49,196 nt of DNA from Acidimicrobiia bacterium. Its GTDB lineage: Bacteria > Actinomycetota > Acidimicrobiia > Spongiisociales > UBA11373. Positions within the stretch are counted from its first letter, which is position 1; the number at the start of each line of letters is the position of its first letter. Made by a program: the position numbers and the translations under genes. Below are positions 37,337 through 42,302 of the stretch, piece after piece. The notes beneath the pieces are model-generated. The model saw only the letters and a list, made by a program, of their open reading frames with translations. It was not told the origin of the DNA and made no database searches. The DNA is taken from positions 1-49,196 of the forward strand of contig JAFGCH010000068.1 of NCBI GenBank assembly GCA_016932695.1. Reading direction: 5' to 3'.

Positions 37337-37903
37337 TCAGTCCTCCGCCCGGCGCCGCTTCGCTACCGCCACCGCCGCCGCCGCCCCCAACAGCCCGAAG
37401 CCCAGGAGGAGCGGGAGCCAGGGCATCTCTTCCTCGAGGGCCAGGGGCTCGTGGATCAGTTCCAGGTCGGTCACATCCAGATAGGACTCCCCGCCTCGGG
37501 CCGGGTCGTGATAACGCCAGACCCCGGTGGCTTCCACCACCGGGCCCCTGAGCCGGTAGCCGCCCGGCCGGTCGAAGCCGGGCCAGGCCTCGGAAGGGAT
37601 CCGCACCCCGATGCCCGCGTTCGCCCCGGCCAGGCTGCCCCCGCCGAGCAAGGGAGCTTCGGCGTAGGGGTCTCCATTCAGCTGGGTCCACACCGTGCCG
37701 TCGCGCCGCTCCCCGAAGTCGCCCACCAGCTCGCCCCGCACCACCACGGCCTCCCCGGCGTAGGCCGTCGGGTCGGCCAGCAACTCCGCCACCGTGACGG
37801 CGGCCGGGGCGGCGAACGCCGATCCGCCCGCGGTCGCCGCCGGCGCCGCGAGCCACAGCACCACCAAGGAGAGCAGCCAGGCCCGGGTCGAGCGGCGCCG
37901 CAT
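37337..37903 (-). CDS. Secreted, C-terminally membrane-anchored protein of the Trk operon
   Basis: 188 residues with a signal peptide (RRRSTRAWLLSLVVLWLAAPAATAGGSAFA), an extracytoplasmic domain rich in beta-strand (AVTVAELLADPTAYAGEAVVVRGELVG; YRLRGPVVEATGVWRYHD) that looks like an OB-fold, and a C-terminal helix (PWLPLLLGFGLLGAAAAVAVA) ending in RRRAED. The start is fused to the trkH stop (TGATG). A role as an accessory factor for potassium uptake is suggested only by this coupling. Confidence 0.7.
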   Translation of the reverse strand: MRRRSTRAWLLSLVVLWLAAPAATAGGSAFAAPAAVTVAELLADPTAYAGEAVVVRGELVGDFGERRDGTVWTQLNGDPYAEAPLLGGGSLAGANAGIGVRIPSEAWPGFDRPGGYRLRGPVVEATGVWRYHDPARGGESYLDVTDLELIHEPLALEEEMPWLPLLLGFGLLGAAAAVAVAKRRRAED

Positions 37904-39402
37904 CACTTCCCCCGCACCGCCGCCACGCAGAAGCCCAGCAGGGCGAACACCGCCACGAACTCCAGGCGGCCCAGCCACATCTGCAGGATGTAGGTGACTT
38001 CGAGAAGGATGGGCATGGACGGAGCGGCGACGCCGACCGACAGGCCCACATTGGCCGAGGCGCTGACCGACTCGAAGAGGGCGTCCTGTAGCGGATAGCC
38101 GTAGGCCAGCCCCACACCGGCGCCCAGGAGATACAGGGCCACGTAGAGCAGGGACACCAGCAGCACTGCCTGAGAAAGGGCAGGCGTGAGCCGCTTCGCC
38201 CCTCCCTGGAAGTACGCGTGGGATATCACTGCCTTGTCGGGGAGGAGCACCAGCTTGATCTGGTTCTTGAGCATGCGCAGCGCCAGGCCCACCCGCAGCG
38301 ACTTCACCCCGCCGGCGGTGGAGGAGGCCATACCACCCAGGGCCATGGCCAAGGCCACCCCGCCGAAGGCCAGCCCTCCCCAGCGGACGAGCTCGGACGA
38401 GGGGACGGTGGCGAAGCCGGTCCCGGTATGGGCCGAAAGCACATGGAACAAGCCCTGCCGTGCCAGAGAGGGAACGCTCCGGTACACGCCCAGGACCGCC
38501 AGCCCCAAGAAGGCGAGGGTGGCGGTGAGCAGCAACGTGAAGGCCAGGGTCCGCGTCTCCAGGTTGCGCAGAGAGCTCCAGCGCCGCGGACCGCGCCATA
38601 GGGCGTAGTGCAGCCCGAAGCTCATGGCGCCCGCCACCATGAACACGGCGGTGGCCGCCTCGAAGACCGCCGAGTGGTAGTAGCCGATGCTGGTGCTCTG
38701 CGGGGTGAAGCCCCCGGTGTCGAAGCCGGCGAAGAAGACCAGCAATCCATGGAAGAGGGAGCGCACGGGGGAGAACCCGAGGGTGAAGTAGGCCACCGAT
38801 CCCAGTACCACGACCCCGAACAGCAGGTGGACCACACTCGCCCACCAGATGAACCGCCCGGTCGAGGCCACCGAGGGCAGGAATCGTTCTTCGCGCGCCT
38901 CCCCGTAGAACAGGCTCAAGCCCACCCCGCCGGCGAAGACCGACACCGCAGCCAGCACGATCCCCTGGCCCCCCATGAACTGCAGCAGATGCCGCCAGAA
39001 GTTGAGGGAGGGAGCCAGGTGATCGAGGTCCTGAAGGAGCGACAGGCCGGTGGTCGTGAGGCCGCTCATGGCATCGAAATACGCATCGAGCGGGCTGCCG
39101 AAGTGGCCGCTGAGCGCCAAGGGAAGCGACCCCAGGGCGGGCACGATCAGCCAGGTGAGGGCGGCTACGACCATCCCGTGGCTCCAGTCGAGGCGGTGCT
39201 CGCCGGGCGGGCGCGAGGAAGCCAGCACGCCCAGCAGGGCGAACGCCCCGGCGGTCAGCACGAAGGAAGACACCGGGGCCCACTCCCGCCCTATCAGGGC
39301 CCAGGCCAGGGGAAGCCCCAGGAAGGCGCCCGCGACCAGCAACACCCGCCCCAGGTAGTAGGAGATGATGCGGAAGTCCTGGACGTCCGGCCGGACCAGC
39401 AT
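37903..39402 (-). CDS. trkH: Trk-type potassium uptake protein TrkH
   Basis: A 499-residue membrane translocation subunit. Four pore-loop/selectivity-filter segments are recognisable: SGLTTTGLS, GFDTGGFTP, HTGTGFATV and SASANVGLS, each with the filter Gly. The membrane segments between them fit the MPM architecture, and MGGMASSTAGGVKSLRV is a strong family motif. It imports K+ under control of the cytosolic TrkA RCK proteins encoded upstream. ATG at 39402 shares TGATG with the stop of the 47-residue gene. Confidence 0.94.
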   Translation of the reverse strand: MLVRPDVQDFRIISYYLGRVLLVAGAFLGLPLAWALIGREWAPVSSFVLTAGAFALLGVLASSRPPGEHRLDWSHGMVVAALTWLIVPALGSLPLALSGHFGSPLDAYFDAMSGLTTTGLSLLQDLDHLAPSLNFWRHLLQFMGGQGIVLAAVSVFAGGVGLSLFYGEAREERFLPSVASTGRFIWWASVVHLLFGVVVLGSVAYFTLGFSPVRSLFHGLLVFFAGFDTGGFTPQSTSIGYYHSAVFEAATAVFMVAGAMSFGLHYALWRGPRRWSSLRNLETRTLAFTLLLTATLAFLGLAVLGVYRSVPSLARQGLFHVLSAHTGTGFATVPSSELVRWGGLAFGGVALAMALGGMASSTAGGVKSLRVGLALRMLKNQIKLVLLPDKAVISHAYFQGGAKRLTPALSQAVLLVSLLYVALYLLGAGVGLAYGYPLQDALFESVSASANVGLSVGVAAPSMPILLEVTYILQMWLGRLEFVAVFALLGFCVAAVRGK

Positions 39403-39545
39403 CAGGCCACCAGCAGGATCAGCCCGGCCAGAGCCAGTGCTGCCGCTACCAGGAATCCCACGATCACCACCTCGAGAGCGAGGCCCCATGCCTCCCCGGC
39501 GGCCTCGCGCAGCAGGCCGCGGCGGCGGCGGGCCTCAGCGCTCAT
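39402..39545 (-). CDS. 47-residue single-helix membrane protein inside the trk operon
   Basis: The ATG at 39545 opens 47 codons ending in a TGA that overlaps the trkH ATG (TGATG). The start overlaps the trkA stop (ATGAGCGCTGA). The protein has a basic N-terminus (MSAEARRRRGLLREAAGEA) and one hydrophobic helix (LEVVIVGFLVAAALALAGL, then ILLVA) that reaches the C-terminus. This recalls KdpF-sized subunits of potassium transport systems, but I know of no such subunit for Trk. Overlap at both ends, correct membrane design and operon position make translation likely. Confidence 0.7.
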   Translation of the reverse strand: MSAEARRRRGLLREAAGEAWGLALEVVIVGFLVAAALALAGLILLVA

Positions 39546-40215
39546 GGTCGCCGGGGACGATCGTCCGATGCAGGGCGGCGCGCACCTCGGACTCCTGAGC
39601 CACCGCCGTCACCACCAGAACCCGGTCGCCGGGGCGGATGACCGTGGCGCCGCGGGGGATCTCCACCTCTCCCCCTTCCCCTTCGCGAGTCACCGCCACC
39701 AGGACCGTCTGCGGAGGCAGGCCCAGGTCGACCACCCGGCGGGGCGAGGCCTCGGCTCCCACTTCGGCTTCGATGAGGCTGATACGCCCCCGCGCCAGCA
39801 GGGCGATCCTCTCCAGGTGCAGGAAGTCGATCTCCCGGGAGATGAGCTGGCTGATCAAGTCGGTGACCGCCACTACCGGGATGCCGAGGGCATCGAACGT
39901 CGCCCGATTGCGCGGGTCGTTCAGCCGGGCCAGCACCCGCTTGGCGCCGAGGGTCTCGGCCAGTTCGCAGGCGGTCAGGTTCACCTCGTCCTGGCCGGTG
40001 AGCGCCAACAGCCAGTCGGCCCGCGCCACCTCGGCGTCCTTGAGGATGCTCATGCTGGTCCCATCCCCCACCAGCACCAGGGCCTCCACCGACTCGGCGA
40101 GCTCGCGGGCCACTTCGGCATTGCCCTCGGCCACGGTGACGGCGTGGCCTCCTTCGGCCAACTCCCGAGCGAGGTGGCGGCCGATCTTGCCCGCCCCGAT
40201 GATGATGATCCTCAC
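39535..40215 (-). CDS. trkA: TrkA family potassium channel regulatory protein (second copy)
   Basis: A 226-residue RCK protein. The Rossmann domain starts MRIIIIGAGKIGRHLAREL with the acidic residue at the end of the second strand (VTVAEGN). GDGTSMSILKDAEVARADWLLALT and the C-terminal RCK_C domain (PRRVVDLGLPPQTVLVAVTREG; IRPGDRVLVVTA) are complete. It should bind NAD(H) or ATP and gate TrkH. The GTG start overlaps the first trkA gene as GTGA. Two separate half-length TrkA proteins replace the single double-length TrkA of enterobacteria. Confidence 0.92.
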   Translation of the reverse strand: MRIIIIGAGKIGRHLARELAEGGHAVTVAEGNAEVARELAESVEALVLVGDGTSMSILKDAEVARADWLLALTGQDEVNLTACELAETLGAKRVLARLNDPRNRATFDALGIPVVAVTDLISQLISREIDFLHLERIALLARGRISLIEAEVGAEASPRRVVDLGLPPQTVLVAVTREGEGGEVEIPRGATVIRPGDRVLVVTAVAQESEVRAALHRTIVPGDHER

Positions 40216-40877
40216 GGTTCTTCCCCGCTCTCGGCGGCCAGGAAGCGGCGGACGCGAGAGGCCACGCCGCGGCGCACCGCCGCCGCCACCAGGTCGCCCG
40301 GCTGCAGCGCATCGGAAGAGCCGGGGATCAGCACGGTTCCGTTGCGCTGCACGGCCGCCACGCGCAGCGCCCCCTCAACCTCTAGGTCGGCCACGGTGTG
40401 CCCGGCGGCACCGGCTCCGAGCACTATCTCCACCACCTGGACGTTGCCGTCGGGGAACTCCAGGTGGTAGGCAAACTCCGGCTCGTGGACCCGCTCCACC
40501 AGCACCCGGGAAACCAGTTTGGCGGTGGGCACGAAGTCCACTGCCAGTGCCCGGTAGGCCGCCTCACGGGCCGGGTCGTCGAGGCGGGCGATGGCCCGGG
40601 GGACGCCGAACACCCGCTCCGCCAGTTGCACTGCCATGAGGTTGGCGTTGTCGCTCGGGGTGAGGGCCAGGAAGACATCCGCTTCCTCGATCCCGGCGGC
40701 CCGCAGGGCATCGACGTCGTAGGTCACTCCCACATGCACGGTGCCGTCGAAGGTCCGTCCCAGCAGCTCGAAGGCCTCCTCCGACTCGTCGAGGAGAGAG
40801 ACGTCGTCACCCAAGGCGCTCAGCGCCTGGGCCACCTCACGGCCCACCCTTCCCGAACCGGCGATGACGACCCGCAT
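40212..40877 (-). CDS. trkA: TrkA family potassium channel regulatory protein (first copy)
   Basis: A 221-residue RCK protein beginning MRVVIAGSGRVGREVAQAL, with LLDESEEAFELLG for nucleotide binding and GVTYDVDALRAAGIEEADVFLAL. The C-terminal RCK_C part (AGHTVADLEVEGALRVAAVQRNG; LQPGDLVAAAV) is intact. It diverges enough from the second copy to suggest a heteromeric ring. The ATG at 40877 is the first of the operon and lies 12 nt after a TACAAT hexamer, so the mRNA leader would be only a few bases. Confidence 0.92.
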   Translation of the reverse strand: MRVVIAGSGRVGREVAQALSALGDDVSLLDESEEAFELLGRTFDGTVHVGVTYDVDALRAAGIEEADVFLALTPSDNANLMAVQLAERVFGVPRAIARLDDPAREAAYRALAVDFVPTAKLVSRVLVERVHEPEFAYHLEFPDGNVQVVEIVLGAGAAGHTVADLEVEGALRVAAVQRNGTVLIPGSSDALQPGDLVAAAVRRGVASRVRRFLAAESGEEP

Positions 40878-40889
40878 TAGCCGGACGCG

Positions 40890-40946: not shown

Positions 40947-42302
40947 GTGCCGGAAGATCGCCTGCACCGCACCTGGCTGAACTCGGACCGGTTCCTGCCG
41001 CGGCGGTTCCTCCGCCCCGCGCTGCGCTTCACCCGGGTGGAGGCGGCCGGCGGCCTGGTGCTCCTCGTGGCGACGGCGGCCGCTCTGGTCTGGGCCAACC
41101 TTCCGGGGGGAGAGTCCTACGCCCGGTTCTGGGCGACCCCGGTGGACTTCACCCTGGGGGCCTTGTCCCTGCACGAGACCCTGCACGGCCTGGTGGGCGA
41201 TGGGCTGATGACCATCTTCTTCTTCGTGGTGGGGCTCGAGATCAAGCGCGAACTGGTGCGTGGCGAGTTGCGCGACCCGAGGACGGCGGCGCTGCCCGTT
41301 TTCGCCGCCCTGGGAGGCATGATCGGCCCGGCCGTCATCTACCTCGCGGTAGTGGGCGGCGGCGAGGCGGCGCGGGGCTGGGCCATCCCGGTAGCCACCG
41401 ACATCGCCTTCTCCCTCGGAGTGCTGTCGCTACTGGGACCACGCGTCCCCGTCGGCGCCCGGCTGTTCTTGCTGACCCTGGCCATCGCCGACGACATCGG
41501 GGGCATTGTGGTCATCGCCGTGGCATACACCACCGACCTCCGGCTCTGGTGGCTACTCGCCTCCCTGGGCGCTCTCGCCCTGGTGGGCGCAGCCAATCGC
41601 GCCGGGATCCGCTCGCTGGCCTTCTACGGCACAGCGGCCTTCGCCGCCTGGTTCTGCCTGCTGGAATCCGGCGTCCACGCCACCCTGAGCGGGGTAGCCC
41701 TGGCCCTCCTGACGCCGGCCCGTTCCCTCTATTCCGACGAGGAATACCGCGATCGTGCCCGGCGCACCCTGGCGGGGCACCGGGCCAGCTCGCTGGCCCC
41801 CTTCGGCCTAGAACGCCTGGATGAGGACGCCCTCACCCTGGCCATGGTGGCCCGGGAGTCGGTAGCGCCGCTCGACCGCATGGAGCGGGCCCTGCACCCG
41901 TGGAGCTCTTTCCTGGTGGTGCCCCTGTTCGCCCTGGCCAACGCCGGGGTGCGCCTTGCCGGGATCGACCTGGGGGCCGCCGCCCTCCACCCGGTCGCCC
42001 TAGGGACCGCCTTGGGGCTGCTTGCCGGCAAGCTGGTCGGCATCTCGGCTTTCACCTGGGTGGCGGTGCGCCTGCGGTGGGGGCGCCTGCCCAGTCTCAC
42101 CACCTGGCGCCACATCGTCGGGGTTGCCGCCGTCGCCGGCATCGGCTTCACCGTGGCCCTCTTCATCGACGGGCTCGCCTTCAGCGACCCCCTGCTTGCC
42201 GATCGGGCCAAGTTGGGCATCTTCGCCGGGTCGATCCTCGCCGGGGTGCTCGGCTACCTGGTCCTGCGCCTGGCCCCGGCGCCCCCAGGGGAGTCGAGCT
42301 AG
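40947..42302 (+). CDS. nhaA: Na+/H+ antiporter NhaA
   Basis: A 451-residue antiporter with about 12 membrane segments. The signature TDIAFSLG (151-158) and the paired ion-binding Asp D182-D183 (IADDIGG) are conserved. FFFVVGLEIKRELVRGELRD near residue 92 and the C-terminal VAGIGFTVALFIDGLAF are also typical. The middle loop (YSDEEYRDRARRTLAGHRA) is longer than in E. coli. It exports Na+ in exchange for H+. The GTG start is 6 nt after TAGCCT and lacks a leader. It diverges from the trk operon, tying Na+ export to K+ import. Confidence 0.95.
   Translation: MPEDRLHRTWLNSDRFLPRRFLRPALRFTRVEAAGGLVLLVATAAALVWANLPGGESYARFWATPVDFTLGALSLHETLHGLVGDGLMTIFFFVVGLEIKRELVRGELRDPRTAALPVFAALGGMIGPAVIYLAVVGGGEAARGWAIPVATDIAFSLGVLSLLGPRVPVGARLFLLTLAIADDIGGIVVIAVAYTTDLRLWWLLASLGALALVGAANRAGIRSLAFYGTAAFAAWFCLLESGVHATLSGVALALLTPARSLYSDEEYRDRARRTLAGHRASSLAPFGLERLDEDALTLAMVARESVAPLDRMERALHPWSSFLVVPLFALANAGVRLAGIDLGAAALHPVALGTALGLLAGKLVGISAFTWVAVRLRWGRLPSLTTWRHIVGVAAVAGIGFTVALFIDGLAFSDPLLADRAKLGIFAGSILAGVLGYLVLRLAPAPPGESS

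Follow-up and report, generated by a model that had tools for sequence, protein, structure and literature searches.

In KdpFABC, the tiny KdpF is encoded ahead of the pore subunit KdpA. As a pore subunit, KdpA shares membership of the SKT superfamily with TrkH (PMC6987127), and the KdpA pore is capped by the periplasmic domain of KdpC (PMC6255902). The canonical TrkAH of Vibrio parahaemolyticus is two-component, and its gating has been established to proceed through the RCK-channel interface (PMC6987127). In Thermotoga maritima, TM1088A/B make up a two-subunit RCK ring with TM1089 as the TrkH partner, and in the accessible portion of the description neither a tiny membrane protein nor an exported one is mentioned (PMC4380455).

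The window analyzed here, the whole stretch of 49,196 nucleotides (contig JAFGCH010000068.1) from an Acidimicrobiia bacterium, carries a trk cluster on the minus strand in which successive genes overlap:

40212..40880, minus strand: trkA-a, a single RCK protein of 222 aa (Pfam), with a 4-bp overlap with trkA-b
39535..40215, minus strand: trkA-b, a single RCK protein of 226 aa with TrkA_N and TrkA_C (Pfam), matching TrkA in 4j9u and TM1088B (3l4b)
39402..39545, minus strand: tiny single-pass membrane protein gene, 47 aa, with an ATG start, a predicted cytoplasmic N-terminus and the conserved Glu25
39400..39404, minus strand: TGATG in which the stop of the tiny ORF overlaps the start of trkH; translational coupling is predicted from the sequence
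37903..39402, minus strand: trkH, 499 aa (PF02386, E 4.6e-42; PDB 4j9u, E 4.9e-40; Foldseek 6v4k)
37337..37903, minus strand: exported protein gene, 188 aa, whose start overlaps the trkH stop (TGATG)

The initial annotation had described a short gene wedged between trkA and trkH and overlapping both. The ORF indeed occupies this slot, but two trkA-like genes rather than one precede it, and a second conserved accessory gene, located after trkH, had been missed. Both overlaps were confirmed: with its ATG at 39545-39543, the tiny ORF overlaps the last 11 bp of trkA-b, whose stop is at 39537-39535, and the TGA of the ORF (39404-39402) has one base in common with the trkH ATG (39402-39400), giving TGATG. 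Translation yields MSAEARRRRGLLREAAGEAWGLALEVVIVGFLVAAALALAGLILLVA (47 aa, 39402-39545, minus strand). TrkA_N and TrkA_C domains were found in both trkA genes, and the trkA-trkA order is conserved among loci; in L072, L074 and L085 the two trkA open frames overlap extensively. The Thermotoga system likewise has its RCK part split over two adjacent genes (PMC4380455), and TrkA-b of the window matches TM1088B. The trkH product has the Pfam TrkH domain and the TrkH fold, aligning with 4j9u over residues 10-488. Its model is of moderate confidence (mean pLDDT 73.5), and the best Foldseek matches were 6v4k, 4j9u and 3pjz, with Vibrio TrkH best of all; the pore fold is that of canonical TrkAH, down to the N-terminal helices that precede the first M1-P-M2 repeat. 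Divergent from the cluster is an ORF at 40947-42302 on the plus strand, which by eye we take to resemble an NhaA Na+/H+ antiporter.

Searching relatives with the 47-aa sequence by itself returned mostly noise and few true loci, and a TrkH-anchored search was used instead. Among 59 related genomes, TrkH searches recovered some 20 loci with a close TrkH (57-78% identity) and about 50 distant canonical TrkH (~30%). An ORF of ~42-52 codons filled the slot in all 17 close loci in which an intact upstream region could be read, as well as in L012, and within the order its product combines a basic N-terminus with a single helix and a Glu that is invariant. The initial annotation had proposed looking for a similar gene of 40-60 codons between trkA and trkH in related genomes, and orthologous loci do have one: the frame is kept, it carries no stops, and it is conserved at the protein level and often translationally coupled to trkH. 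A TrkH alignment scan of a contig collection identified 55 loci in Acidimicrobiia, Coriobacteriia, Salsipaludibacter and one Hadesarchaeote, and also a fragment binned as gammaproteobacterium. Most loci of the whole analysis come from metagenome assemblies, class names within the phylum are available solely for matches in this collection, and one pattern scan covered the breadth beyond Actinomycetota. The same type of TrkH was present in 106 of 396 genomes in a search of Actinomycetota, and a plasmid search returned only distant TrkH, all below 60% identity. Relative to canonical TrkH, the TrkH proteins of the subfamily form one clade (support 100) with the Hadesarchaeal TrkH at its base.

Presence of the tiny ORF was scored by a fixed rule, which called for a transmembrane segment above a hydrophobicity cut-off and a stop between -80 and +12 relative to the trkH start. 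By this rule, an ORF of 40-55 codons encoding a single helix was found at 113 of 133 subfamily TrkH loci, a set that includes some genomes twice because it was drawn from two collections. Applied to other genes of the loci, the rule gave 17 of 285, one of the 17 being a true case before the second trkH in L097, and for canonical trkH paralogues of the same order it gave 0 of 20, trkA usually abutting trkH directly there. Since canonical paralogues lack it, the ORF as judged from these searches goes with a single TrkH subfamily rather than with Trk systems at large. Where a trkA ended no more than 330 bp upstream of trkH, the ORF was present in 63 of 67 loci, usually as trkA-trkA-ORF-trkH. Loci scored as having no transmembrane ORF numbered 12 of 133 at a looser threshold, at which a few calls are tails of other genes, and 20 of 133 at a stricter one; some of these are loci at the edge of a contig, second copies of a tandem pair or ORFs just under the cut-off. 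The tiny ORF is not strictly required, given that some subfamily TrkH, including one subclade, are without it. Tandem duplicates of subfamily trkH occur in L129, L130 and L097, and no ORF was found ahead of some of the copies.

A profile of 54 members produced 19 matches (E <= 0.01) in the 59 whole genomes. All 19 lay directly upstream of a subfamily TrkH, with none elsewhere and none in genomes without this subfamily, so that in these genomes linkage is restricted to trk loci; most of the 19 were already in the profile, and the independent evidence consists of three loci that had been held out (G016:C94, G013:C24 and G004:C15) and of the lack of other matches.

The gene after trkH is similarly restricted. 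It was found there in 87 of the 91 loci whose sequence extends far enough downstream, and a profile built from 17 of those loci gave 22 matches in 20 of the 59 whole genomes, every one directly after a subfamily TrkH. It is kept in several TrkH loci that have no tiny ORF. Its product starts with a signal or transmembrane segment and ends in a transmembrane segment with a basic tail; the soluble domain between them bears the motif GE(L/A)(V/I)GD...W.QLNDD.Y. Comparison with Pfam, NCBIfam and PDB gave no credible match to KdpC or any other known family; the weak similarity of one member to an OB-fold model (E 0.11) serves as no more than a lead. In seven genomes of the order a canonical trkH stands beside the subfamily trk cluster (L183-L189; G020, G036, G044, G042, G023, G016 and G004), and at these seven loci with both types of TrkH the two accessory families occur solely beside the subfamily TrkH.

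The basic N-terminus and single hydrophobic helix described for the tiny protein were borne out by a maximum 19-residue Kyte-Doolittle mean of 2.94 and by an AF2 model consisting of one helix over residues 3-46 (mean pLDDT 91). Homologues have a median length of 47 aa. In 88% of them the N-terminus has a net charge of +1 or more, and their C-terminal tails are near neutral, from which the positive-inside rule predicts an N-in/C-out topology. At the predicted cytoplasmic end of the helix is a G-x-x-x-E motif, its Glu (Glu25 in the window) ~6 residues into the hydrophobic stretch. This Glu is present in 65 of 99 members and the motif is kept by the most distant ones, for example YLAGMAIEILSVLFLSAFAFLLIALLVSWYS; Val or Ile replaces the Glu in Eggerthellaceae and one other clade. 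Among E-type members, a small residue is found at -4 from the Glu in about 77-83%, and Ala, Gly or Ser at +11 in 97% and at +15 in 74%. These three positions fall on a similar helix face, forming a small-residue stripe; a formal test for helical periodicity of conservation was not significant (p about 0.1). The protein had been called undescribed, and in keeping with this no significant family was found among the Pfam-A and NCBIfam models, and no third small Trk subunit was found in openly accessible papers. KtrE is a glycolipid synthase.

The possibility that the protein is KdpF itself was rejected. The KdpF model PF09604 gave no match up to E 5 for six members, and its search of 40 genomes gave none in G000 and none over the cut-off at tiny ORFs. 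True KdpF, recognized elsewhere by PF09604, carries a C-terminal P-E-(R/K) motif and is encoded before kdpA in the kdp operon, whereas the tiny ORF stands before trkH. In L090 (MELR01000015.1) the two potassium systems adjoin, with a subfamily trkH and tiny ORF shortly before kdpF and kdp-like genes.

In the GC-rich DNA of the window an open frame by itself says little, as many such frames arise there, and the tiny ORF might be no gene but a chance frame or an N-terminal piece of trkH, for which a longer frame starting at ATG 39489 is available in the window. In many orthologues, however, the trkH frame is closed within 5-10 codons upstream of the same start, and the ORF is conserved across the phylum. 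In ten independent close pairs dN/dS for the ORF frame was 0.05-0.70, with nine of the values at or below 0.46, and the two shifted frames in the same pairs were generally without a comparable excess of synonymous change. Given the protein-level conservation of the frame, the dN/dS below 1 in every close pair and the absence of the ORF before canonical TrkH paralogues, the tiny ORF is a real gene, and the comparative data refute the contrary explanation, whose residual probability is negligible. Selection is the key evidence that the peptide itself matters, and not only the position of its ORF.

This same selection weighs against a translational leader, in which a partnerless hydrophobic peptide would bring ribosomes to the translocon and so set trkH expression through coupling and membrane targeting. 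Such a role would accord with the frequency of TGATG or near-overlap junctions (46 of 99 homologues, at +1, +4 or -1) and with the lack of a clear Shine-Dalgarno sequence before trkH in the window. It accounts poorly for purifying selection at the level of residues and for a pattern of Glu, Gly and small residues maintained across very divergent lineages, and the ORF persists at loci where its stop is 30-80 bp ahead of trkH; canonical trkH, moreover, manages without such a leader. We consider it improbable. About equally improbable in our estimate is a chaperone-like factor for assembly or insertion of TrkH that would leave the mature complex, a function that small upstream-encoded membrane proteins can serve. 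The comparative evidence that favors a subunit favors such a factor equally and does not separate the two; the conserved buried charge argues mildly for a specific and lasting contact.

Our preferred reading, to which we assign a probability of roughly 0.7, is that the tiny protein serves one distinct TrkH subfamily as a small accessory subunit, working as KdpF does and not homologous to it. KdpF is also single-pass and encoded directly ahead of a pore subunit. The small structural or regulatory Trk subunit proposed in the initial annotation is thus supported, the word subunit being what we infer from the comparative evidence. The protein would cross the membrane as a single helix, its Arg-rich N-terminus facing the cytoplasm and its C-terminus the exterior, and translation coupled directly before TrkH would place it at hand during TrkH insertion. 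Within the membrane it may then pack on TrkH, using a helix face made up of the small residues and the conserved Glu; the likeliest site is D0M1, the first and peripheral helix of TrkH. Such putative binding would stabilize either the dimer of TrkH or the coupling between that dimer and the two-gene TrkA (RCK) ring, and may thereby affect gating or assembly, with the basic tail at the interface of membrane and ring. The disordered N-terminal tail of KtrB, which modulates gating, is likewise basic and membrane-proximal at the channel-RCK interface (PMC12059179). That tail is part of KtrB and the one considered here sits on a separate protein; the comparison, an analogy only, suggests a role of the basic tail in gating. 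AcrZ and CydX similarly are short single-helix proteins that modulate or complete larger complexes (PMC7267776, PMC6005532); their partners are unrelated, and no sequence relation is claimed.

A candidate for the contact is TrkH residue 19, which in D0M1 comes immediately after a Gly that is conserved, and is Arg in the window. This position is Lys or Arg in 65 of 68 members with an E-type ORF and Ala, Ser or Thr in 11 of 11 readable canonical paralogues; its counterpart in Vibrio TrkH is Leu12. The Hadesarchaeal locus also has the Glu and a Lys. The similar membrane depth of Glu25 and Arg/Lys19, together with the difference between E-type and canonical members, suggests a buried ion pair. Phylogenetically independent comparisons, of which the tree offers only 2-6 pairs, lend the pairing no support, the two traits changing together too rarely, and one clade keeps Lys19 yet has lost the Glu. 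The ion pair is accordingly a tentative proposal, and a rather doubtful one.

By analogy with KdpFABC, in which KdpF would correspond to the tiny helix and KdpC to the exported protein, the latter may act as a further subunit, placed on the outer face. The most economical reading of the locus would then be a larger Trk complex, with the RCK ring inside, the TrkH pore and a small helix in the membrane, and the exported domain outside. That the subfamily forms the pore of an undescribed multi-subunit Trk, comprising two RCK proteins, a KdpF-like helix and an extracellular cap, and ancestral in Actinomycetota with at least one archaeon sharing it, is a proposal to which we give slightly less than even odds. 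If true, a Kdp-like accessory set would surround a Trk pore.

Trk is among the best-studied bacterial potassium systems and has been described as a two-component machine. A conserved tiny helix and a conserved exported protein, tied to one subfamily across the phylum, would imply unmodelled regulatory or structural parts in many actinobacterial Trk channels, which annotation misses because both are without curated families. The locus would also offer a testable case of tiny membrane proteins tuning ion channels, and an instance of convergence on a KdpF-like part inside one pore superfamily.
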